Origin: Thermotogaceae bacterium
GTDB lineage: Bacteria > Thermotogota > Thermotogae > Thermotogales > Thermotogaceae
Reading direction: 5' to 3'
NCBI GenBank assembly: GCA_027077795.1
Contig: JALWTT010000002.1
Location: forward strand, 1 to 64,000
Length of the DNA stretch: 64,000 nucleotides
The stretch's first letter is position 1. Each line of letters starts with the position of its first letter. Made by a program: the position numbers and the translations under genes. The notes beneath the pieces are model-generated. The model saw only the letters and a list, made by a program, of their open reading frames with translations. It did not search any database and had not been told where the DNA came from. Below are positions 14,094-25,441 of the stretch, one piece after another.

Positions 14094-14807
14094 TTGAGGA
14101 GAGAAAGGCTATCGATAAATCTAGCTAATGAGCTTAAAAAGTACATATTGGAAACGGGAGCAAGAAAACTTCCCTCGGAGAGAAAACTCTCCAAAATGTT
14201 CGGTGTCACTCGCACGGTCATAAGGGAAGCACTGAGGCTCTTGGAATATGAAGATGTGATCACGGTTATACCAGGTAAAGGATCCTTGGTATCAAACATC
14301 GAGAAGATCTCACTGGAATACAACATTCCCTTCAAATTCAACGTTCAGGACAAAAAGTTCATAAGGGAAATACTCGATGTACGGGCAGCGTTGGAAGAAG
14401 CGGCCGTTAGGCTCGCCATACAGAATGCAACCGACAAGCAACTGGAAGATCTATGTTCCATATCCGAGGAGCTCTTAAAGATGTTTGAAAACGGCGAGGA
14501 ATTTTCCGAAACGGATTACCTGTTTCATGAGATGATATTCCTCATATCCGGCAACGATCTTCTTAAGTACCTTCACAAGGTCATCCGAGACATAACCGAT
14601 CTCTTGTGGAAGTCTCCTCTGGGAAATCCGGAATTCGGTGACCGAGGGATACCACTTCACAGAGATCTAGCCATTAAGATGCGCGAGAGAAACGAAAAAG
14701 ATGCCGTTGAAACCCTCAGAAAAATCATAGAGATAGACAGAGAAGATTTGACAAAGTGGAGGGGAGGACAATCACATGGGCTTCAAAAAGGTTTCAGACC
14801 TCATTAG
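14094..14807 (+). CDS. GntR/FadR-family transcriptional regulator
   Basis: This 237-residue regulator has an N-terminal winged helix (RKLPSERKLSKMFGVTRTVIREALRLLEYEDVI, about residues 22-55) followed by an all-helical FCD ligand-binding domain (VRAALEEAAVRLAI onward). The FCD domain typically binds sugar acids or organic acids through a metal. The TTG start is preceded by AGGTGAT. The long palindrome just upstream is its probable operator. It is the first gene of an operon with glycosidases and a sugar importer, so it probably senses a breakdown product of the imported glycan. Members of this family often respond to uronates, which would fit the neighbouring genes. Confidence 0.9.
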   Translation: MRRERLSINLANELKKYILETGARKLPSERKLSKMFGVTRTVIREALRLLEYEDVITVIPGKGSLVSNIEKISLEYNIPFKFNVQDKKFIREILDVRAALEEAAVRLAIQNATDKQLEDLCSISEELLKMFENGEEFSETDYLFHEMIFLISGNDLLKYLHKVIRDITDLLWKSPLGNPEFGDRGIPLHRDLAIKMRERNEKDAVETLRKIIEIDREDLTKWRGGQSHGLQKGFRPH

Positions 14808-16983
14808 CAGCGACGAAAAGTGGTACCTAGGGTTCGGTGAAAGGCTCGTTTGGACGCCAACCCACCCTACTTGCATGGATTGCCTGGGATTCTGGGATGC
14901 TTCGAACTTTTATGATATCCGCATATATCCAAACTACACGGTGCACCTGTTTCTGGATAAATCCGCTTTACCGGCGAAATTGAAAAAGGTCAGGAGTAAA
15001 TGGCTCCCCGATCTTCTCATTTCAGAGTATGAAAATCATCCAATACAACTCAAGGAGACGAAATCAGTTGTTCACGACGCTCTAGTGAGCGACTTGCAAT
15101 TGAAGAACGAACTGAATAAACCCTTGACTGTACACCTGATAGCTTGGGGAAAAGTTTTGAATAGTGACAAGGTGAAGATCAAAAGGACGGAATCGGAAGG
15201 AGATTTACTCCTAATTGAGGAGACCAGAAGAAGAGGAAATGGAAACGTTGTAGGGCTTTTCAGAGCTTTTGGAATGCAAGGAGCCGAGAGCTACCAAATT
15301 CAATTTTCCAAGGATAATTTAAATTTACCTGAGTTTGAATATACCCCATTTTTCGATTACTTCAACGGATCTTTGCCGAACACAATTAGAGTGTTTGAGG
15401 AAAGTGGAAGCATCTACTACGCCCTCCACCGTGAAGTAACCCTACCCCCCAGAAGGGTTACAACTGTCAGAGTGTTCATGGCGTTTGGACTCAACCAAAG
15501 AGAAGTGATTGAAAGAAGGAAAAGGATTTATGGAACCTCAAACTTAGTTGAATACGTCGAGAAATTCTGGAACGACTTTTCAGAGGGTATACCAGAGTTT
15601 GAGTCAACTGATCGGAGGTTCACGAGGTATTACTGGTACAGGTGGTACGGACTCAAACTGTTTTCACTTAAGAGGGGTGAGGGGAACTACAAGTACCCGA
15701 TTGTATTCGAGGGCCCCGACTATTTCAGAATTCATATAACATACAGTGCGCAATGTCATATGAGAGAAATGAAATGGGCATACTGGGATTTTGCGGAAGG
15801 TAGCCTTCTGAATTTTGTGGAGAATCAAAAACCAGATGGAAGTTTTCCAGGCCACGTGTACTTCGACGGAACGTTCAGGAATAGCTTTTACCATGCCGAT
15901 TGGGGAAAAGCAGCTTTGGAAGTTTTTTCACACACAGGAAATATCGATTTTCTCAAGAAGGCCACTTATGGGTTGATGAAGTATTCAGAATACATGGACA
16001 AGTTCAGAGATCCCGAGCAAACGGGAATGTACGATATATTCGATCACTTTGAAACCGGTCAAGAGTTCTCCAGAAGATACACTGTTGTGGATGAAAATGT
16101 CGACACATACGAATGGAGAAGAAATCTGAAACTCAAGGGTATAGATGTCACAGTTTACATGTACAACTTGAAAAAAACCCTAGCCGTTTTCTTGAAGATA
16201 CTGGGTGATGAGGAAAAGTCGGCCAGGTTTCAAAGAGAAGCGGAGTTCATTGCAGATGCCGTTAGATCTAAGATGTGGGATCCCAATATGGAGATGTTTT
16301 TCGATGTGAATCCAAAAACTGGAGAAACCACCGGTGTGAAAGCCGCTGTGTGCTTTTATCCGTACATGACAGACATTCCTCAAAAGCCTCACCTTGAGGG
16401 TTTCAAAAAGCATCTGTTCAATCCTAACGAGTTTTGGACGCCCTATCCAGTACCAACTCTGAGTGTCGACGATCCCATGTTTAACCCCCACGCGGAGTGG
16501 AGGGGGAAAAGACTCTCTTGTCCATGGAACGGCAGGGTCTGGCCCATGACAAATAGCCATATTGCTGAGGCTATGGGAACAACTGCCAGGCGGTTTAGAG
16601 ATGAGACCTTAAGAGACAAGACTGTAGTGTTCATTGAAAAATTCATAGACATGCTCTTCTTCAACGATGAGCCCAACAGTTATGAGCATTACAACCCTTA
16701 CAACAAGAGGCCCAGCTTTTACAGAGGGGTGAACGACTATCAGCACTCCTGGATAGTTGACCTCATTTTCAAATACGTGGTGGGGCTTTACTTTACAGAT
16801 GATGGCGTTCTGAAATTCGATCCTTTTCCGTTCAAACAGGATTTCAGCATGAGAGGTTTAAGGATTCGGGATCTCATACTGGATGTTGAAAAGAGAGGTG
16901 AGAAATACGAAGTTTTCGTGAATGGTTCGAAGTTCTTCGAAGGGTACCCTGAAGAAGGGGTAACCATATCAAAGTTCTTCTAA
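14776..16983 (+). CDS. (alpha/alpha)6-barrel glycoside hydrolase, GH63/MGH1-like
   Basis: This 735-residue protein has no signal peptide. An N-terminal beta-rich part (1 to about 260) precedes a six-hairpin toroid with motifs of the mannosylglycerate hydrolase/GH63/trehalase group: EMKWAYWDFAEGSLLNF, QKPDGSFPGHVYFDG, MYDIFDHFETGQEFSRRY, and CPWNGRVWPMTNSHIAEAM close to the C-terminus, resembling the NGPxWP motif. It would remove a sugar from an imported oligosaccharide. The ATG overlaps the gntR end by 32 bp and has GAGGGGAGG upstream. I cannot assign a CAZy family with certainty, and the exact catalytic acids are not identified. Confidence 0.7.
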   Translation: MGFKKVSDLISSDEKWYLGFGERLVWTPTHPTCMDCLGFWDASNFYDIRIYPNYTVHLFLDKSALPAKLKKVRSKWLPDLLISEYENHPIQLKETKSVVHDALVSDLQLKNELNKPLTVHLIAWGKVLNSDKVKIKRTESEGDLLLIEETRRRGNGNVVGLFRAFGMQGAESYQIQFSKDNLNLPEFEYTPFFDYFNGSLPNTIRVFEESGSIYYALHREVTLPPRRVTTVRVFMAFGLNQREVIERRKRIYGTSNLVEYVEKFWNDFSEGIPEFESTDRRFTRYYWYRWYGLKLFSLKRGEGNYKYPIVFEGPDYFRIHITYSAQCHMREMKWAYWDFAEGSLLNFVENQKPDGSFPGHVYFDGTFRNSFYHADWGKAALEVFSHTGNIDFLKKATYGLMKYSEYMDKFRDPEQTGMYDIFDHFETGQEFSRRYTVVDENVDTYEWRRNLKLKGIDVTVYMYNLKKTLAVFLKILGDEEKSARFQREAEFIADAVRSKMWDPNMEMFFDVNPKTGETTGVKAAVCFYPYMTDIPQKPHLEGFKKHLFNPNEFWTPYPVPTLSVDDPMFNPHAEWRGKRLSCPWNGRVWPMTNSHIAEAMGTTARRFRDETLRDKTVVFIEKFIDMLFFNDEPNSYEHYNPYNKRPSFYRGVNDYQHSWIVDLIFKYVVGLYFTDDGVLKFDPFPFKQDFSMRGLRIRDLILDVEKRGEKYEVFVNGSKFFEGYPEEGVTISKFF

Positions 16984-16995
16984 GGAGGTGGGGTC

Positions 16996-18288
16996 ATGAG
17001 AAAATTTTGGGTGATTTTCCTGGTAGCCTTGATCCTGGCAACGCTGGCGTTCGGTAAGATAAAGCTCAGAGTAGCAAGTTGGGCAGGTGCTTTAGAAGCA
17101 TCTCTGGATGAAAAGATCATAGCAGAATTCATGAAACTTCATCCAAATGTGGAAGTGGAGTACGAGCCGATTCCGAGTGACTATTATCAGAAAATACTGA
17201 CGGATATTGCAGCTGGGACACCACCGGATGTCTTTCTACTGGACGCCGAAATGGTTCCGAGGTACTCCGAAGAAAAATTACTCTTGAATTTAGCGCCGTA
17301 CCTAGCTAGACTGGCAAAGGAAGGTGTATCGGGGGCGAATCTGAAAGACTACTTCGACGTGTTGGTCAACATCTTCAAGCTAGGCAGAGCTGTGTACGCC
17401 ATCCCAAAGGACACCAGCCCGGTCGGCGTTTTCTACAACAAAAAGCTATTCGACAAATACGGAGTGCCGTATCCTTCAGAAAAAGGCTGGACATGGAGTG
17501 AATTTGAACAAGTGGTTGCAAAGCTTTCACACGATACCAACGGTGATGGCAAAAACGATGTTTGGGGATTCTCATTCCCAGGTTGGGTAGGCGTTGCAGT
17601 GCCATTGCTCTGGGCTGGAGGTGGAGAGGTGTTTTCACCTGATTTCACCCACACAAAAGGATATCTCAACAGTGATGCAAACGTCAAAACATATAGCTTC
17701 TATGTGAACCTTTTGAGGAAAGGATACGCCCCTGATCCGGAGGAGGCTTCATCACTTGGGGGAACCTCGTCGCTGTTCTACACAGGTAAAATTGGAATGG
17801 TCATAACCGGAAGGTGGTTCTGGATAGGAATCAAAAAACAGATCAAAGAAGGAGCGCCACTCGATATCGGAGTGGCTCCGATTCCCCACGCTCCAGGTTT
17901 TCACAACGTAACTGTTACATATGCTTCCGGATGGGCTGTTCCGTCCAACGTCAAGAACAAGAAACTCGCCGTTGAGCTTGCTGCATGGCTATCAAGTGAA
18001 TACGCTCAAAGAGAAAGATGCCTAAAAGGAGGGTTGGCGATATCAGCCAACAAGAAGGTAGCTGAAGAACAGGCGGCAACGGATAAAGTCGATTCGGTCT
18101 TCATAAAGATGCTCGATTTCTCCAGAGTTCCAATAGGATCAAAGACGAAATACTACAGGCCTTTGTTTGAAAGGACATGGGGAGATGCTGTGGATAGAAT
18201 TCTGATCAAGGGTTGGACCGTTAAGAAAGCTCTGGACTGGGCCGCTCAGCAAATAGACACAGCTATAGAAAATGGGAATTGGGAATAA
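16996..18288 (+). CDS. sugar ABC transporter substrate-binding protein (family 1)
   Basis: This 430-residue protein has a classical signal peptide (charged MRKF, hydrophobic core to about residue 20, then KIKLRVASWAG) and a maltose-type fold: ILTDIAAGTPPDVFLLDAEM, GVFYNKKLFDKYGVPYP, TWSEFEQVVAKLSHDTNGDGKNDVWG. It captures a mono- or oligosaccharide outside the membrane and delivers it to the two permeases encoded next. TAAGGAGGTGGGG precedes the ATG. A hairpin lies just after the stop, so it may be expressed above the permeases. No lipobox Cys is seen, so it may be anchored by an uncleaved signal or be free in the periplasm. Confidence 0.93.
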   Translation: MRKFWVIFLVALILATLAFGKIKLRVASWAGALEASLDEKIIAEFMKLHPNVEVEYEPIPSDYYQKILTDIAAGTPPDVFLLDAEMVPRYSEEKLLLNLAPYLARLAKEGVSGANLKDYFDVLVNIFKLGRAVYAIPKDTSPVGVFYNKKLFDKYGVPYPSEKGWTWSEFEQVVAKLSHDTNGDGKNDVWGFSFPGWVGVAVPLLWAGGGEVFSPDFTHTKGYLNSDANVKTYSFYVNLLRKGYAPDPEEASSLGGTSSLFYTGKIGMVITGRWFWIGIKKQIKEGAPLDIGVAPIPHAPGFHNVTVTYASGWAVPSNVKNKKLAVELAAWLSSEYAQRERCLKGGLAISANKKVAEEQAATDKVDSVFIKMLDFSRVPIGSKTKYYRPLFERTWGDAVDRILIKGWTVKKALDWAAQQIDTAIENGNWE

Positions 18289-18293
18289 GCCTT

Positions 18294-18316
18294 AGGGAGG
18301 GTTCCCCCTCCCTTTT
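18294..18316 (+). terminator. terminator-like hairpin between binding-protein and permease genes
   Basis: AGGGAGGG (18294-18301), a 4-base loop and CCCTCCCT (18306-18313) run into TTTT. Placed inside the operon, it probably acts as partial terminator or 3' stabiliser, raising binding-protein mRNA above that of the permeases. Confidence 0.65.
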
Positions 18317-18342
18317 CTCCATCGAAGATTGGAGGGTGAAGC

Positions 18343-20568
18343 GTGAGCGGGAAAGTGAAGATGTATCTGATTCTCATAGCAATAATATTTGTAGCCATCA
18401 TTTTTGGGGTATCGATTGTTTACTTCAAATTCAAAGCCACAGAGTACAGAAAGTCCGTTGAAAACGATCTCGTTCGGCTGAGCCTTTTCTCGCTGAAAAG
18501 CTCCATCCGCGACTTCGAAGAAAGGGTGTCTAGCTTTCTGAAGAAAAATGAGATCTCCTCTTCAAACCTCAAATCGCTGAGCGAGGACATGTGCAAAATG
18601 GGATGTTCGTTCGTCTTGTGGATGGATACAGATGGAAATGAATTAAACCAATTCGGAAGTGTGCCAAATGAGGACATATACAATAGTGACCTGATCCAAT
18701 CCGTTCTCTATGAAGAAGATTACACCTTTCTGTCAGATTTATTCTTCACGAAATCTGGCATTGAGATCCGAAGCACGGGAATTGTCAAGACAAAAGATGG
18801 GAAGGAATTACTCGTCGTCGCTGGAAAAACACTTCCCAAGAATTACTTCTCCGAAATAGGCAAAGTGATTCATCGTAATGTGTTTTTCATCTCAAAAGAC
18901 GGGAGGGTTTTTGGGAGAGGCTTTCACATAGACCCCAAGGTTCTAAACGAAGCTGAGGAAGGTCAAAAACCTGAAACGACCTTTTCAAAGAACGGTATGT
19001 TGGTGAGCGTTATCCCACTCTTCGATTTCGAAGAGTGGAACGTGAAAGGATTCTTGGTGAATTTCACCGCTATTAAGAAAGCGATGGGAAAGATCTCTGG
19101 ATTTATAATATTCGACCTACTCCTGCTTTCCATAACGCTGGCCTTTTTCATATGGGGCATACTACTGGCTGGAAAGAGGAGGAATGCTGCCACAAAAATT
19201 TTGTACATATTTTCTATACCCCTGTTGATCTCAATATTCGTGATCTTCACGTTTCAAACTTCGAAATCCTTGGGTTCAGAACACGCCGAGTACATAAGAT
19301 CAATGGCACGTGTTCTAAATGGTCACGGGGAAATATGGGCGGGCGAAAATCGCCTAGACGAGATGAAAAAAATTCTGAACATCCAAGCCATATTGAGGGA
19401 AGATGGGAAGATCCTAGCTGCCACGCTGAAGAAGAACTTGCTAGACAAATTGGACAATTGGAAATCGCTTGAAACATCAGGACCTGTTAGGATTGGAGAG
19501 GTGGATGTCAACAAGGTTGAACACTCCTATCTGAGAATGAAGGTGGGAAACAAGGATTTAATCGTGATGAAGGAAAAAACCGTTCTCATCAACAACATCG
19601 TGAAATCTGAATTCGTGGGAATCATATTGCTCACTACATCCATATTCTTTGTGCTGATACTCGGATTCTCCATAAAGAATGCGCACCGCCCTAGACTCCT
19701 CAAGGCAACCCTGATAGGCTATTCTTTTCTCGCCCCTGCTCTTATACATCTCTTGTGGTGGGCTGCAGGACCTGTTGTGTTTTCCCTCTTCTTGGCATTC
19801 CATAGGTGGAATGTCATAGACCCTGCGAAGCCGTTCGTAGGGCTTGAGAATTTCAAGATACTATTCCAAGACAAGCTGTTTTGGAACGCCATGAAGAACA
19901 CTGCTATATTCTCTCTTCAAGTTCCCATAAGCATGTTTCTTTCACTACTCTTGGCGTTAGGAGTTAACAGAAGAACCAGGAGCATGGCACTCTTAAGAAC
20001 CATTTACTACCTTCCTGCAGTGACATCTGGCGTGTCTACGATCATAGTTTGGAGATGGATACTCAACAAGGAGTATGGAATATTGAACTACATCCTGGGG
20101 TTTTTCGGAATCCCAAAGGTTCCATGGTTGACTTCTCCAAGAACGGCACTCATAGCTATAATGATAATGAGCATTTGGCAAGCTCTGGGGAGCCAGATGA
20201 TAATTTTCTTAGCAGGACTCCAAAGCATTCCACAAGCCTTCTATGACGCCGCTAGTGTGGATGGCGCGAACAGACTCCAAAAGTTCCAACATATAACCTT
20301 GCCACTTTTAAAGCCGACTTCTCTTTTCGTTCTTGTAACCAGTATTATCGGATCTTTTCAGATATTCACCCCGGTTTATGTTCTAACTCAGGGTGGACCT
20401 TTGAGGAGCACAGACGTTGTTTTCTACCACATATGGGAGGCCGCATGGATAGAACTGAAAATGGGGTATGCTGCTGCACAATCTTGGATGCTGTTTGTCG
20501 TATTGCTGGTGTTGACCTATATGGAATTCAAGTTTTTCGGCAAGGAGAGTTGGAAGCAGTACTTCTGA
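18343..20568 (+). CDS. sugar ABC permease (MalF type) fused to an N-terminal double extracytoplasmic sensor-like region
   Basis: This 741-residue protein has a C-terminal 290 residues (about 450-741) forming a normal CUT1 permease (LGYSFLAPALIHLL-like start; EAA loop YDAASVDGANRLQKFQHITLPLLKPT). The N-terminal 450 residues are unusual: membrane helix 8-28, extracytoplasmic region 29-250 with a Cache/PAS-like strand (VFFISKDGRVFGRG) and a Cys84/Cys88 pair, helices 251-276 and 285-304, a second extracytoplasmic region 305-422 with another such motif (IQAILREDGKILAAT), and helix 423-444. The start GTG 18343 is preceded by GGAGGGTGA. Long MalF proteins exist in Thermotoga, but this layout looks like a receptor joined to a transporter. 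No ATPase gene is nearby, so a shared ATPase is inferred. Confidence 0.85.
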   Translation: MSGKVKMYLILIAIIFVAIIFGVSIVYFKFKATEYRKSVENDLVRLSLFSLKSSIRDFEERVSSFLKKNEISSSNLKSLSEDMCKMGCSFVLWMDTDGNELNQFGSVPNEDIYNSDLIQSVLYEEDYTFLSDLFFTKSGIEIRSTGIVKTKDGKELLVVAGKTLPKNYFSEIGKVIHRNVFFISKDGRVFGRGFHIDPKVLNEAEEGQKPETTFSKNGMLVSVIPLFDFEEWNVKGFLVNFTAIKKAMGKISGFIIFDLLLLSITLAFFIWGILLAGKRRNAATKILYIFSIPLLISIFVIFTFQTSKSLGSEHAEYIRSMARVLNGHGEIWAGENRLDEMKKILNIQAILREDGKILAATLKKNLLDKLDNWKSLETSGPVRIGEVDVNKVEHSYLRMKVGNKDLIVMKEKTVLINNIVKSEFVGIILLTTSIFFVLILGFSIKNAHRPRLLKATLIGYSFLAPALIHLLWWAAGPVVFSLFLAFHRWNVIDPAKPFVGLENFKILFQDKLFWNAMKNTAIFSLQVPISMFLSLLLALGVNRRTRSMALLRTIYYLPAVTSGVSTIIVWRWILNKEYGILNYILGFFGIPKVPWLTSPRTALIAIMIMSIWQALGSQMIIFLAGLQSIPQAFYDAASVDGANRLQKFQHITLPLLKPTSLFVLVTSIIGSFQIFTPVYVLTQGGPLRSTDVVFYHIWEAAWIELKMGYAAAQSWMLFVVLLVLTYMEFKFFGKESWKQYF

Positions 20569-20586: not shown

Positions 20587-21432
20587 GTGTTGAGAGAAAA
20601 AGAAGCCCTAACTAAGATTCCTTTAAAGCTTTTAGCGGTTTTTCTTCTAACGGTTTTGGCCATTTCAACTTTACTACCGTACATAATGATGGTTTCAGCC
20701 TCATTCATGGCACAATTTGAGATATACAACTTTCCCCCGAGGTTGTTTCCTTCCCACCCAAAACTGGATAACTACGTAGAAATGTGGAAATCTCAACCTT
20801 GGGGAAGGTACATATTCAACACAGTTTTCGTCGCCGTTACGGTCGTGATAGGGCAACTTTTTGTCATATCAATGGGAGGGTATGCACTCTCCAGGCTCCA
20901 CTTTCCGGGAAGAGATACTGTTTTCAAGATGTTCATAGCCTTTATGATGCTTCCGGGGGTTGTCACACTCATACCAGGTTTCATAATACTGCACAGTCTA
21001 AGATGGATTGACACATATATGGCGTTAATAGTACCCTCACTTGGAAACATATGGGGACTGTTTCTCATGAGACAATACATGTTAAGTCTTCCAAAAAGTT
21101 TAGAGGATGCGGCTAGAATAGACGGAGCCTCTGAATTCACCATATTCTGGAAGATAATATTGCCTTTGTGTAAGCCCGTTCTAGCAACGGTAGCGACTTT
21201 CACGTTCCTGGGAATGTGGAGATCTTTCCTCTGGCCGTTGATAGTCACAAGGAGTAAAGATATGAGGATGATAGAGGTTGGCATAGCCATGTTCGCCACG
21301 CAGTACACCGTGGACTATCCCGTTCAACTGGCCGCTGCTACTCTGTCCTCTATCCCGTTGATAATCGTGTATTTCCTGGCACAGAAGTGGCTACTTCAGG
21401 GGATAAAAATATCCTCCGGTTACGAGAGGTGA
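20587..21432 (+). CDS. sugar ABC permease (MalG type)
   Basis: This 281-residue CUT1 permease has six membrane helices and the EAA motif DAARIDGASEFTIFWKIILPLCKPVLAT that docks the ATPase. It is the second half of the transmembrane channel with the preceding fused permease. The start is GTG 20587 (TTG 20590 possible) behind AGAGGTGATC. The N-terminal cytoplasmic tail and the last residues (ISSGYER) are typical of the family. It lies 18 bp after the first permease and 6 bp before the GH172 gene. Confidence 0.93.
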   Translation: MLREKEALTKIPLKLLAVFLLTVLAISTLLPYIMMVSASFMAQFEIYNFPPRLFPSHPKLDNYVEMWKSQPWGRYIFNTVFVAVTVVIGQLFVISMGGYALSRLHFPGRDTVFKMFIAFMMLPGVVTLIPGFIILHSLRWIDTYMALIVPSLGNIWGLFLMRQYMLSLPKSLEDAARIDGASEFTIFWKIILPLCKPVLATVATFTFLGMWRSFLWPLIVTRSKDMRMIEVGIAMFATQYTVDYPVQLAAATLSSIPLIIVYFLAQKWLLQGIKISSGYER

Positions 21433-21438
21433 TAAAGC

Positions 21439-22461
21439 GTGTTTATGGACCTGTATGATTTCAAAGGATGGGAATCTTTTTCCATATCCGCAGAAAATCC
21501 AACGGGGGAAAGAGACAAAGGTGCTCTAGAAATCCCAGGCCCGAACAGTCCAGCCAGGAAGTTGGGAAAGGGTTGGAAGGTTAGGCCAAGCATCGTACTT
21601 GAGAAGAGTAAAGAAACTCTATTGGCAGATATAGAAGGGCCAGGAGTTATAACCTACATGTGGATGACCGTCGATGAGAAAGCATATAGAAGTTGCATTT
21701 TAAGGATGTACTGGGACAGTGAATCGGAGCCCTCCGTTGAAGTCCCACTAGGGGATTTCTTTGTGAACCCATTTGGAATCAGGTTTGAAGTCAATTCCCT
21801 TCCCATTTCAGTTAATCCTTCAGGAGGTTTCAATTCTTACTGGCCAATGCCATTCAGGGAAAGGGCGAGGGTCACCGTTGAAAATCAGGGAAACGAAGAT
21901 ATACCCCATTTCTTCTATCAAATAAGCTTCATAAAGAAGAAGCTTGAAAGTAACATCCTTTACTTCCATTCCCAATGGCGCAGGAGCATGACATCAAGAA
22001 ATAGTCCCCAACACGTTATTTTGGAAACTGAAGGTAAAGGGAAGTACGTGGGAACTGTCATAGCTTGGGAACAACTCTCAAACGGATGGTGGGGAGAAGG
22101 TGAGGTCAAATTTTTCATAGATGGTGAAAAGAACCCCAGCATATGCTACACGGGTACAGAAGATTACTTCGGTGGGGCATGGTGCTTCGGAAAAACCTAT
22201 TCCACTGCCTTTCTGGGATATCCCCTGTGGATAAAAAGGGAAGGCCAGATTCCCAAACATGTGATGTACAGATGGCACATCCCAGATCCAATATACTTCA
22301 AAGAGAGGTTGAAAGTCCTAATCCAAGCACTAGGCTGGTGGCCTGATGGAACTTACCAGCCTCTGACAGATGACATCACCTCGGTGGCATACTGGTATCA
22401 AACGGAACCACATTCAAATTTTCCAAGTCTTCCGGATTTGGAAAAGCGTTATCCCAGATGA
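21439..22461 (+). CDS. GH172 (DUF2961) family glycoside hydrolase
   Basis: This 340-residue cytoplasmic protein matches DUF2961: ADIEGPGVITYMWMT, VEVPLGDFFVNPFG and CYTGTEDYFGGAWCFG, the last being the conserved GTEDYFGGAW block. Characterised GH172 members act on alpha-D-fructofuranosides and D-arabinofuranosides and assemble into trimers or larger. The specificity here is unknown. The start is GTG 21439 (ATG 21445 possible) after GAGAGGTGAT. It is the last gene of the rightward operon. Its stop TGA abuts the stop of the convergent sialidase-fold gene, the two forming the palindrome TGATCA. Confidence 0.85.
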   Translation: MFMDLYDFKGWESFSISAENPTGERDKGALEIPGPNSPARKLGKGWKVRPSIVLEKSKETLLADIEGPGVITYMWMTVDEKAYRSCILRMYWDSESEPSVEVPLGDFFVNPFGIRFEVNSLPISVNPSGGFNSYWPMPFRERARVTVENQGNEDIPHFFYQISFIKKKLESNILYFHSQWRRSMTSRNSPQHVILETEGKGKYVGTVIAWEQLSNGWWGEGEVKFFIDGEKNPSICYTGTEDYFGGAWCFGKTYSTAFLGYPLWIKREGQIPKHVMYRWHIPDPIYFKERLKVLIQALGWWPDGTYQPLTDDITSVAYWYQTEPHSNFPSLPDLEKRYPR

Positions 22462-23679
22462 TCACTCACTGGGAGAAGTTATCCACTCTTCGTTGAACTC
22501 CGCATGTTTTATGGTTTTACCTTGTGGCGAGTGATAGCTGTACGCCACGTGTATGAACCCGTCACGATCTTGCCAGATCGATGGATATGCCACACTTATA
22601 CCCGCATCCTTCGGATGCTCCTCTATGACTTTCCTCCATCTCCAGCTCTTCCCCTCATCGTTTGACATGAAAACAACCAGCCTATATCTCCCATCTTCCA
22701 AGTCGTTCCCAACTATTATCCATTTGCCATCTTTCAGCACTATCCCATCAGCCCTACTACCAGGATTCGGTATCTCAGTGTACTGAACTTCGCTCCAGCT
22801 CATCCCCCCATCTTTCGAGTAGCTTACATATAGCCTGTGTGGCGCCGGCCCGTTGTTCCTCATGAACGCCACCAGCGTCCCATCTCTCCTCATAAGCAAA
22901 GCCGGCTGAATGTTGGCAATGCCAACTATTGGCTCGCTAAATTTCCAAGTCTTCCCACTGTCTCCCGTGATCGCCACCAGCGATGTCTCAAGACCATCAG
23001 AGTAGATCGGAAGAAGTATCTTGCCCCCAAGGATTATCGCCCTGTTGCCCGTCTGCCAGCCAAGCCTTTGCAAAAGAGGATATCCTTCCTTCAAAGAGGC
23101 TTTCCTGCCCCATACCTTGTCAAGTTGCTCGCTTATATAAGCCATCGCTATTTTCTTCGTGTCTTCTTCGCTGTACCCCGGAATCGCTTTGTACTTGTCC
23201 AGGTATCCTTGAATGAACCCTTTCAGCTTCTTCTCGTACACAGACGCAAAGGAGTCGCTTTCCTTGATCCCATTTCTAAAGCTATCGTGCTTGACGATGA
23301 TCACATCTTGCCATTCCCACCTGGGAGCACCCGACCCCATGTAGTCGTGCGTGTAGGCATACCTCAATAGAGAGCTCTCCCATAGGTTGGTCAAAACGGT
23401 GTACCAAAAGAGCCATAGCTTCCCTCCCTTGTCTATAAAGAGAACCGGGTTTATGTCCGGAAATCCTGGATAGTCCATGACAACAAATGGCTTCGTCCAT
23501 TTACCACTTATCTTCTTCGCACCCATTATCCTGACGTCGTCCCCTTTCCTCTCGTCTGTCCCTTGAAACCAGACTACAAATAGGTCCCCATTCGAAAGCT
23601 GAATTATGGAAGGCGCATGTACGTGCTCCTTGACAAGTGGAAAAATCCTTGATTCATTAAATTGTACTTCTTGAATCAT
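22462..23679 (-). CDS. sialidase-fold (BNR/Asp-box) protein, copy 1
   Basis: This 405-residue protein lacks a signal peptide and has a beta-propeller pattern with Asp boxes TGDSGKTW, SKDGGMSW and SNDEGKSW. Sialidase-type start motifs include APSIIQLSNGDLFVVWFQGTDE and a later RNNGPAPHRLYVSYS. Automatic annotation would say exo-alpha-sialidase, but BNR proteins also include lyases and other glycosidases; next to a beta-glucuronidase a sialic acid role is doubtful. It is the last gene of the leftward operon. The ATG has TAAGGAGGTAGC upstream. The last few codons lie outside the repeat, so the C-terminus reads TSPSE here and MS in copy 2. Confidence 0.75.
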   Translation of the reverse strand: MIQEVQFNESRIFPLVKEHVHAPSIIQLSNGDLFVVWFQGTDERKGDDVRIMGAKKISGKWTKPFVVMDYPGFPDINPVLFIDKGGKLWLFWYTVLTNLWESSLLRYAYTHDYMGSGAPRWEWQDVIIVKHDSFRNGIKESDSFASVYEKKLKGFIQGYLDKYKAIPGYSEEDTKKIAMAYISEQLDKVWGRKASLKEGYPLLQRLGWQTGNRAIILGGKILLPIYSDGLETSLVAITGDSGKTWKFSEPIVGIANIQPALLMRRDGTLVAFMRNNGPAPHRLYVSYSKDGGMSWSEVQYTEIPNPGSRADGIVLKDGKWIIVGNDLEDGRYRLVVFMSNDEGKSWRWRKVIEEHPKDAGISVAYPSIWQDRDGFIHVAYSYHSPQGKTIKHAEFNEEWITSPSE

Positions 23680-23743
23680 TATGCTACCTCCTTAGCAAGC
23701 TCTAACTATTACCCAATATTCAAACAATTGATACGTTCAAAAT

Positions 23744-25441
23744 CTACTTTGATTCCTGAAAATCATTAAGCCATAGTTTTCTCAAAGTATGGGCAGCAAG
23801 TTTTGGGGCCCTTGTCCTAGTGAAAACACCCTTATGGTTCAAAATAGGCCTCAGTACATTTTGAAGGGTTTTGAAATCGGCAAAGGCCCATACATGTGTT
23901 CCTATAATATACTCTTTCTTTACCAAAACATCTATCGTCCTTTTTATGATCTCGGCTTGATATTCCTCAGAGAACATTTGAGGAGGATCATAGTGTAAAC
24001 CTGCAATCGCATCGGCACCAAATTCTGTCACAAAAACAGGTTTCTTGTGACGTTGATATAAGAGATCGAGATCCTCTTTTAAAGCTTTCAATCCCTCGTC
24101 TATTCTCCCTTGAAAATCGTACCAACCATAATATCTATTTACAGATACTATGTCGAAAAACTTCATCGCAAAGTCTCTTGTACTTTCATCAGGGCGATCC
24201 TTTGCACTAACAAATGTTACTGGTCTTGTTTCATCCGACGACTTTGCACCTTCATAGAGCGCTTTAAAGAAACTCTCTGCCCCTGGATGATTTGATTCTG
24301 GTTCATTCGCAACACTCCACATAATGACACTAGGGTGATTTTTATCACGATCTATCATTCTCTTCACATTCTCCACTGCTTGTTCTTGAGTTCCCGAATT
24401 GTAGTGGTACCTTGTGATTCCTACATGCGGTGCCTCGTCAATCACAAGTATTCCCGTTTCATCTGCTAGGTCTAACCACTCTTCACTATAAGGATAATGC
24501 GATGTTCTGAAAGAATTCGCTCCTATCCATTTTAGAAGGTTAAAATCTTTCACCATGAGAGGATAAAATGTTCCTTGACCTAGTATTGGGAATTCCTCGT
24601 GTTTTCCAAAGCCTTTGAGAAAAATAGGCTCTCCATTGAGGTATAGGTTCTTATCATCCCATTCAATCGTACGGACTCCAATTTTTAAGTGGTACTTGTC
24701 TTCTTCTCCTATACTTATTTTTAAATCATATAAATAAGGGTCTTTTATGCTCCAAAATCTTGCTCCCTCTATTTCAAACAATATTTTTTGTATCTTTTCA
24801 GCTTGCAGCACTTTTTCTTGTCCTGCTAATTCAATCTTCATTTCCTTTCCTACTGCCTCGTCTGATACATTTACTGTCAGTTCGATCACTCCTTGGCCCT
24901 TCTTTGGGAGAGATTGATTTGTTTTCACCCATATATCTTCAATCCTTGCATCTGAGCTAAATTCTAGGATCACAGGCCTTATGATTCCTCCATAGGGAAT
25001 AAAGTCAAATTTTGCGGGTGGAAAACTTCCCAGAAACCAGCGACCTTCTTCTGGAATTTTTGATGGGAACCCTCCAGTTTTTAGTTTGTTTATCACCCTT
25101 ACCACTAGCTCATTCTTTCCAACTTTTATTGAATCTGAAACGTCTATTTCGAATGGAAGATATCCTATGTGATTTTCACCAACTTTTCTTCCGTTTATAT
25201 ATACTTCACAATCTGTATTTACTGCACCAAAGTAAAGTCTGATTCTCCCCATTCTTGCCCACTTCGGAATATTCAACTCCCTCCTGTAGAACACAGGGCC
25301 TTCCTCGTAAAAAAGCTCTTGATGTTGTTCATTCCAGCTTGCTGGTACTGCTATCGATTTACTTTTTCCTCCCACATCTATCTCCCATATTCCTCCCAAA
25401 TCAATTACCATTCTTGAAGCGTTCATCTGAGGTCTCAACAT
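23744..25441 (-). CDS. uidA: beta-glucuronidase (GH2), copy 1
   Basis: This 565-residue cytoplasmic enzyme has GH2 order: sugar-binding jelly roll (about 1-165), immunoglobulin-like domain (166-260) and TIM barrel. The acid/base Glu380 is in WSVANEPESN, the nucleophile Glu473 in FVTEFGADA, and the RTSHYPYSEEWLDLADETGILVIDE motif is typical. Asn535 and Lys537 in NHKGVFTRTRAPK form the NxK motif that recognises the carboxylate in beta-glucuronidases. It releases glucuronic acid from non-reducing ends of imported oligosaccharides. The ATG has TAGGAGGG upstream. It lies between the ATP-binding gene and the sialidase-fold gene of one operon. Confidence 0.92.
   Translation of the reverse strand: MLRPQMNASRMVIDLGGIWEIDVGGKSKSIAVPASWNEQHQELFYEEGPVFYRRELNIPKWARMGRIRLYFGAVNTDCEVYINGRKVGENHIGYLPFEIDVSDSIKVGKNELVVRVINKLKTGGFPSKIPEEGRWFLGSFPPAKFDFIPYGGIIRPVILEFSSDARIEDIWVKTNQSLPKKGQGVIELTVNVSDEAVGKEMKIELAGQEKVLQAEKIQKILFEIEGARFWSIKDPYLYDLKISIGEEDKYHLKIGVRTIEWDDKNLYLNGEPIFLKGFGKHEEFPILGQGTFYPLMVKDFNLLKWIGANSFRTSHYPYSEEWLDLADETGILVIDEAPHVGITRYHYNSGTQEQAVENVKRMIDRDKNHPSVIMWSVANEPESNHPGAESFFKALYEGAKSSDETRPVTFVSAKDRPDESTRDFAMKFFDIVSVNRYYGWYDFQGRIDEGLKALKEDLDLLYQRHKKPVFVTEFGADAIAGLHYDPPQMFSEEYQAEIIKRTIDVLVKKEYIIGTHVWAFADFKTLQNVLRPILNHKGVFTRTRAPKLAAHTLRKLWLNDFQESK

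Follow-up and report, generated by a model that had tools for sequence, protein, structure and literature searches.

The 64,000-nucleotide stretch of DNA from a Thermotogaceae bacterium analysed here (the window) encodes a 741-residue protein in which a receptor-like N-terminal half (N-half) with two extracytoplasmic domains, ecto1 and ecto2, continues directly into the sugar permease of an ABC importer. Structural modelling gives good support to ecto1 having the dCache fold known from the sensors of chemoreceptors and histidine kinases, and sequence comparison indicates that the fused sensor-permease is a family and not a one-off. The combination of Cache and permease domains is real and conserved, and apparently undescribed. 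We propose that the N-half may place the importer under external control. The gene, the parts of its product and the surrounding cassette are as follows.

14094–14807, plus strand: GntR/FCD regulator, frequent cassette member (Pfam; neighbourhood comparison)
14776–16983, plus strand: MGH1-like glycoside hydrolase, frequent cassette member (Pfam; neighbourhood comparison)
16996–18288, plus strand: substrate-binding protein (SBP) gene of the same cassette (Pfam SBP_bac_1; conserved neighbour)
18331–18336, plus strand: Shine-Dalgarno-like GGAGGG, six bases 5' of the GTG (read directly)
18343–20568, plus strand: fused sensor-permease gene, 741 aa, GTG start (open reading frame and translation; homologues with the same fusion)
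18349–18438, plus strand: TM1 (residues 3–32), running on as a stalk helix to residue 68 (hydropathy, model)
18439–19071, plus strand: ecto1 (residues 33–243), stalk helix and two PAS-like modules, predicted dCache fold (AlphaFold2; Foldseek against the PDB)
19072–19263, plus strand: TM2-TM3 hairpin (residues 244–307) with the short, positively charged cytoplasmic turn KRRNAATK (hydropathy, model, charge)
19264–19578, plus strand: ecto2 (residues 308–412), predicted small sheet of PAS/profilin-like type without significant relation to Cache (models, fold search)
19579–19677, plus strand: TM4 (residues 413–445), leading into the permease elbow helix (hydropathy, model)
19678–20565, plus strand: CUT1-type permease (residues 446–741), with the EAA loop DAASVDGANRLQKFQHITLPLLKP from residue 635 (Pfam, alignment)
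20587–21432, plus strand: MalG-type partner permease, 281 aa, with no extra domain (Pfam; conserved neighbour)
21439–22461, plus strand: DUF2961 (GH172) protein, frequent cassette member (Pfam; neighbourhood comparison)

The open reading frame at 18343–20568 is real and intact, a single frame encoding 741 residues, and a sequencing or assembly artefact or a chance frame is ruled out by the presence of the same fusion in many other genomes. The sole Pfam match of the whole protein above the cut-off is BPD_transp_1 (PF00528) at residues 531–723. Hydropathy places transmembrane (TM) segments at residues 1–33, 247–278, 281–307 and 419–447, with the permease helices after them, and residues 1–445 have the order TM1-ecto1-TM2-TM3-ecto2-TM4 before running straight into the permease. 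The three predicted cytoplasmic segments all contain K/R residues and lack D/E, which places both large loops outside; the initial annotation, made from the letters of the DNA, had described four helices enclosing two outside regions of about 220 and 118 residues, an accurate description in the light of hydropathy and charge and close to the modelled limits of ~33–243 and ~308–412. By model and hydropathy the cytoplasmic segments are short, about 6 to 15 residues, and therefore hold no classical signalling output. Two hairpins are predicted between the SBP gene and the fused gene, an 8-bp, GC-rich one at 18294–18313 and another at about 18316–18336 that pairs with the GGAGGG ribosome-binding region (folding z -1.7); these could perhaps lower expression of the permease relative to the SBP. 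A pattern scan of this interval found no intrinsic terminator.

The C-terminal half is the ordinary permease that it had been taken for. Residues ~446–741 form a CUT1-type sugar permease with the BPD_transp_1 domain, the six-helix core and the EAA loop at 635, encoded in the MalF position together with an SBP and a MalG partner. Residues 458–734 match SugA and AlgM1 in alignments that span the whole core, and the solved relatives of the core are SugA, a related mycobacterial-type permease, AlgM1 and MalF, the last of which aligns only from its residue 262 on. The MalF P2 loop is absent, its site being occupied by a loop of only ~40 residues. That the extra regions might fold as the usual P2-type insertion, an outcome that the initial annotation had allowed for, is thus excluded both by the length of this loop and by the position of the extra domains. 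Two other oversized permease frames occur in the same genome, one of 753 residues (G000:C9:39979-40848) whose match includes an in-frame TGA and one of 825 residues (G000:C6:3897-4319); these are possibly the long MalF and MalG types reported previously (PMC2246101).

The fold of the N-half was modelled with AlphaFold2 from residues 1–465 and an alignment of 16 family members, and the resulting model is confident (pLDDT 89, pTM 0.86). Residues 3–68 form one helix, the strands at 90–163 and 179–243 form two PAS-like modules, and ecto1 is followed by the TM2-TM3 hairpin, a single small sheet (348–411), TM4 and the elbow helix. Modelled ecto1 therefore has the double PAS-like fold and the long N-terminal helix of a dCache domain, and it fills the region between two TM helices. 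Foldseek returned 52 PDB matches to the N-half model at E <= 1e-3, and among those listed nearly all are dCache domains of chemoreceptors and histidine kinases, including Tlp3, PctA/B/C, KinD, Mlp24/37, TlpA and McpB. With TM-scores of at most 0.59 by target length, a moderate value, these matches indicate a fold relation but not a close one. No Pfam Cache model matched any of the 16 members, and neither ectodomain matched a sequence profile from Pfam, NCBIfam or PDB chains. The R-x-W-[YF] element of the dCache amino-acid ligand motif (PMC10104139, PMC11245519) is absent from 16 of 16 aligned members, making an amino-acid ligand of the usual type unlikely.

Ecto2 gave a different result. Both outside regions had been proposed to be Cache/PAS-like sensors, to be checked by structure prediction and fold search, and this proposal is supported for ecto1, with ecto2 only a possible sensor. 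Modelled alone, ecto2 is less confidently predicted than the N-half (pLDDT 83, pTM 0.75), and its fold search yielded no significant match to Cache, PAS or other folds (best E 0.07), the weak matches being a mixture of roadblock/profilin and Cache chains. The possibility that ecto2 is a copy of part of ecto1 was rejected, as a profile comparison finds no similarity between them (probability 0.5%). On these models a double sensor is only half shown, with one sensor fold well supported.

The survey of homologues suggested in the initial annotation shows that the same N-terminus recurs in three phyla, in one clade and beside SBP and MalG genes. It is carried by 15 of 103 Thermotogota genomes, in 6 of 38 genera; neither of the two further members sampled from the window's genus carries it, nor do the eleven further ones from its family, a patchy presence that suggests acquisition or repeated loss. 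The second phylum is Bacillota, with one genome (locus L119) whose 862-residue frame has a permease 58% identical and a related N-half, and the third is Chloroflexota, with one metagenome-assembled genome (MAG) whose permease is 52% identical (L027, a short, low-coverage contig, so that the host is tentative). Wide occurrence in Chloroflexota was rejected, since this single MAG was the only case in sets of ~300 genomes from the phylum, ~300 from the class and 46 from the order, and none was found in 296 Spirochaetota genomes at a strict cut-off in a search run without a positive control. In a tree of the permease domain only, the 17 fused proteins group together, apart from 61 unfused permeases (support 97/89); with the Bacillota protein added, 18 distinct fused permease domains form one clade against 62 unfused (SH-aLRT 95, quick method). 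The N-half is kept in all 18 distinct members of this clade, the sampling of which is uneven, such that unfused members could have been missed. In two genomes the SBP-F-G set is immediately adjoined by a second one, which is diverged and includes a fused F of its own; each of these tandems (L102, 6164–13916; L112, 4463–12203) has the order SBP1-F1-G1-DUF2961-SBP2-F2-G2-regulator, with two different fused sensor-permeases side by side.

In every Thermotogota locus long enough to read, an SBP gene precedes the fused permease and a MalG gene follows it, and common neighbours are the GntR/FCD regulator, MGH1-like or GDE/GH116-like hydrolases, and DUF2961, which is family GH172 (PMC8605356, PMC10115798). 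A protein of ~1030–1050 aa with GDE_C/GH116/MGH1-like hydrolase similarity is a recurrent neighbour (L106, 13025–16105; L111, 4070–7198). In the Bacillota locus, GalT and galactokinase genes lie just before the SBP and fused permease (L119, 2188–4582), which suggests a galactoside importer. On the minus strand of the window at 22462–25441, a BNR-repeat (sialidase-like) gene and a GH2 gene face the cassette and suggest a wider glycan-use island. The cluster in the window contains no ATPase gene, and three OB_MalK-type ATPases are encoded elsewhere in the genome. Transporters can act as sensors, as those of the BceAB type do with their kinases, and this precedent together with the receptor-like fold would fit an N-half that acts as a co-receptor, binding a membrane signalling protein such as a kinase or chemoreceptor and reporting transport or ligand to it. 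We regard such a role as very improbable, given that the conserved cassette includes no histidine kinase or chemoreceptor gene and its recurring regulator is a soluble GntR/FCD protein.

The constant position of the fused gene between its SBP and MalG genes is also what would be expected of a docking platform, in which the ectodomains keep the SBP, or else a glycan or partner enzyme, close to the channel without sensing a small molecule. P2 of MalF shows that an additional ectodomain on an importer can make contact with the binding protein, and a P2-like role of this kind, as in E. coli MalF, might be filled by the N-half in a permease that has no P2 loop. Related permeases of the SugA type work with SBPs without any N-half, however, and a surface dedicated to SBP contact should track the SBP more closely, whereas between families identity falls to about 21–22% in the N-half and is about 59–72% in the permease, SBP and MalG. 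Pure docking of the SBP is therefore our second-ranked reading, and a rather doubtful one.

Between close homologues the N-half is under purifying selection yet evolves roughly ten times faster than the permease: dN/dS is 0.10–0.21 for ecto1, 0.21–0.30 for ecto2 and about 0–0.01 for the permease in the pairs G082-G083, where synonymous sites are close to saturation, and G085-G094, where the permease is partial. The N-half is thus retained under constraint, though a far looser one than acts on its partners. As judged from sequence, this loose constraint argues somewhat against a conserved dock for the SBP and for a sensor with a changing ligand, and a loosely constrained structural role would fit as well. 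The fast turnover, the missing dCache ligand motif and the failure of sequence profiles to recognize the N-half could likewise point to a degenerate receptor remnant, retained only because it helps the permease to fold, to stay stable or to be anchored in the envelope. Such decay is unlikely in view of the full plan of four helices and two ectodomains in 18 of 18 clade members, of dN/dS values of about 0.1–0.3, and of residues D228, W232 and Y396, which are invariant and fall in both modules.

Based on these data, we judge it most likely among the readings, albeit at somewhat less than an even chance, that the receptor-like N-half lets an external ligand, or the SBP, modulate the activity of the importer. 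We propose that ecto1 would bind an extracellular small molecule, or respond to the loaded SBP, and that the resulting shift would pass from TM1/TM2 through the TM3-ecto2-TM4 hairpin and on via the elbow helix to the permease, where transport would be raised or lowered. Lacking a cytoplasmic output domain, the N-half could pass a signal only to the permease, its ABC partners or another membrane protein, and the external regulatory input would act on the importer itself and not on a kinase or chemotaxis array. This regulatory reading rests on the confident model and its significant PDB matches, nearly all of those listed being dCache receptors, on the lack of room for another output in the cytoplasmic segments, on the retention of the N-half under purifying selection in 18 of 18 clade members from three phyla, on an ectodomain turnover much faster than that of the permease, SBP and MalG, as is common for sensors with changing ligands, and on the constant SBP-F-G setting. 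Against it, the pocket of ecto1 could be empty given the absent R-x-W-[YF] element, no sensor is significantly matched by ecto2, which is predicted to separate ecto1 from the channel, and weak constraint would also suit the structural role noted above. The sensing domain of the Campylobacter receptor Tlp11 is of the Cache type. This galactose receptor provides a precedent for the direct sensing of a sugar (PMC5080441). In its strongest form, which we offer only tentatively and consider doubtful, the regulatory reading is that of a ligand-gated ABC importer, in which a chemoreceptor-type dCache sensor in the permease chain would directly control sugar uptake within the membrane in response to an extracellular signal, with no need for a kinase, a second messenger or transcription, in a manner conserved in at least three bacterial phyla.

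The 2016 survey of Cache sensors reports every identified Cache domain to belong to a protein with a signalling output domain and mentions no transporter or permease in its text (PMC4822843), whereas in the protein described here only a transport domain follows the N-half. The fused family presents a Cache-fold domain on a transporter without an output domain. Searches of the open-access literature turned up no Cache-permease fusion, in agreement with the initial annotation, which did not recognize a double-sensor layout as described. If the domain does control transport, it would link an external signal directly to nutrient uptake and offer a lead for engineering regulated importers. The natural variants of the family (about 20–60% identity, in single and tandem copies) could be used for testing such control.

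Compared with known systems, the protein shares with dCache sensors such as Tlp3, PctA, Mlp37 and KinD the predicted ecto1 fold, the long N-terminal helix and the placement between two TM helices; those proteins have a cytoplasmic output domain, whereas here the chain runs into a transport channel and there is no detectable sequence similarity. With CUT1 permeases of the UgpA/SugA/AlgM1 type it shares the core alignment, the EAA loop and the SBP-F-G gene order, but those are of about 300 residues, whereas the present core is preceded by an N-half of 445 residues that adds four helices and two ectodomains. E. coli MalF and Thermotogales MalF1/2 are likewise sugar permeases with an additional extracytoplasmic domain (PMC2246101), in their case P2, a ~180-residue periplasmic insertion between helices 3 and 4, while the additions here precede the core and have a predicted Cache fold. 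The same account of the Thermotogales mal operons, from which the fused layout is absent, describes in MalG1/2 a hydrophilic region of ~500 residues between TM1 and TM2 (PMC2246101), comparable as a large undescribed ectodomain on a sugar permease, but that is a single region on the G subunit, and the MalG of the window is of normal size. Finally, the alpha2delta protein of voltage-gated calcium channels also associates a Cache domain with a membrane channel (PMC4822843), although it is a separate auxiliary subunit of an animal ion channel and the likeness is one of analogy only.
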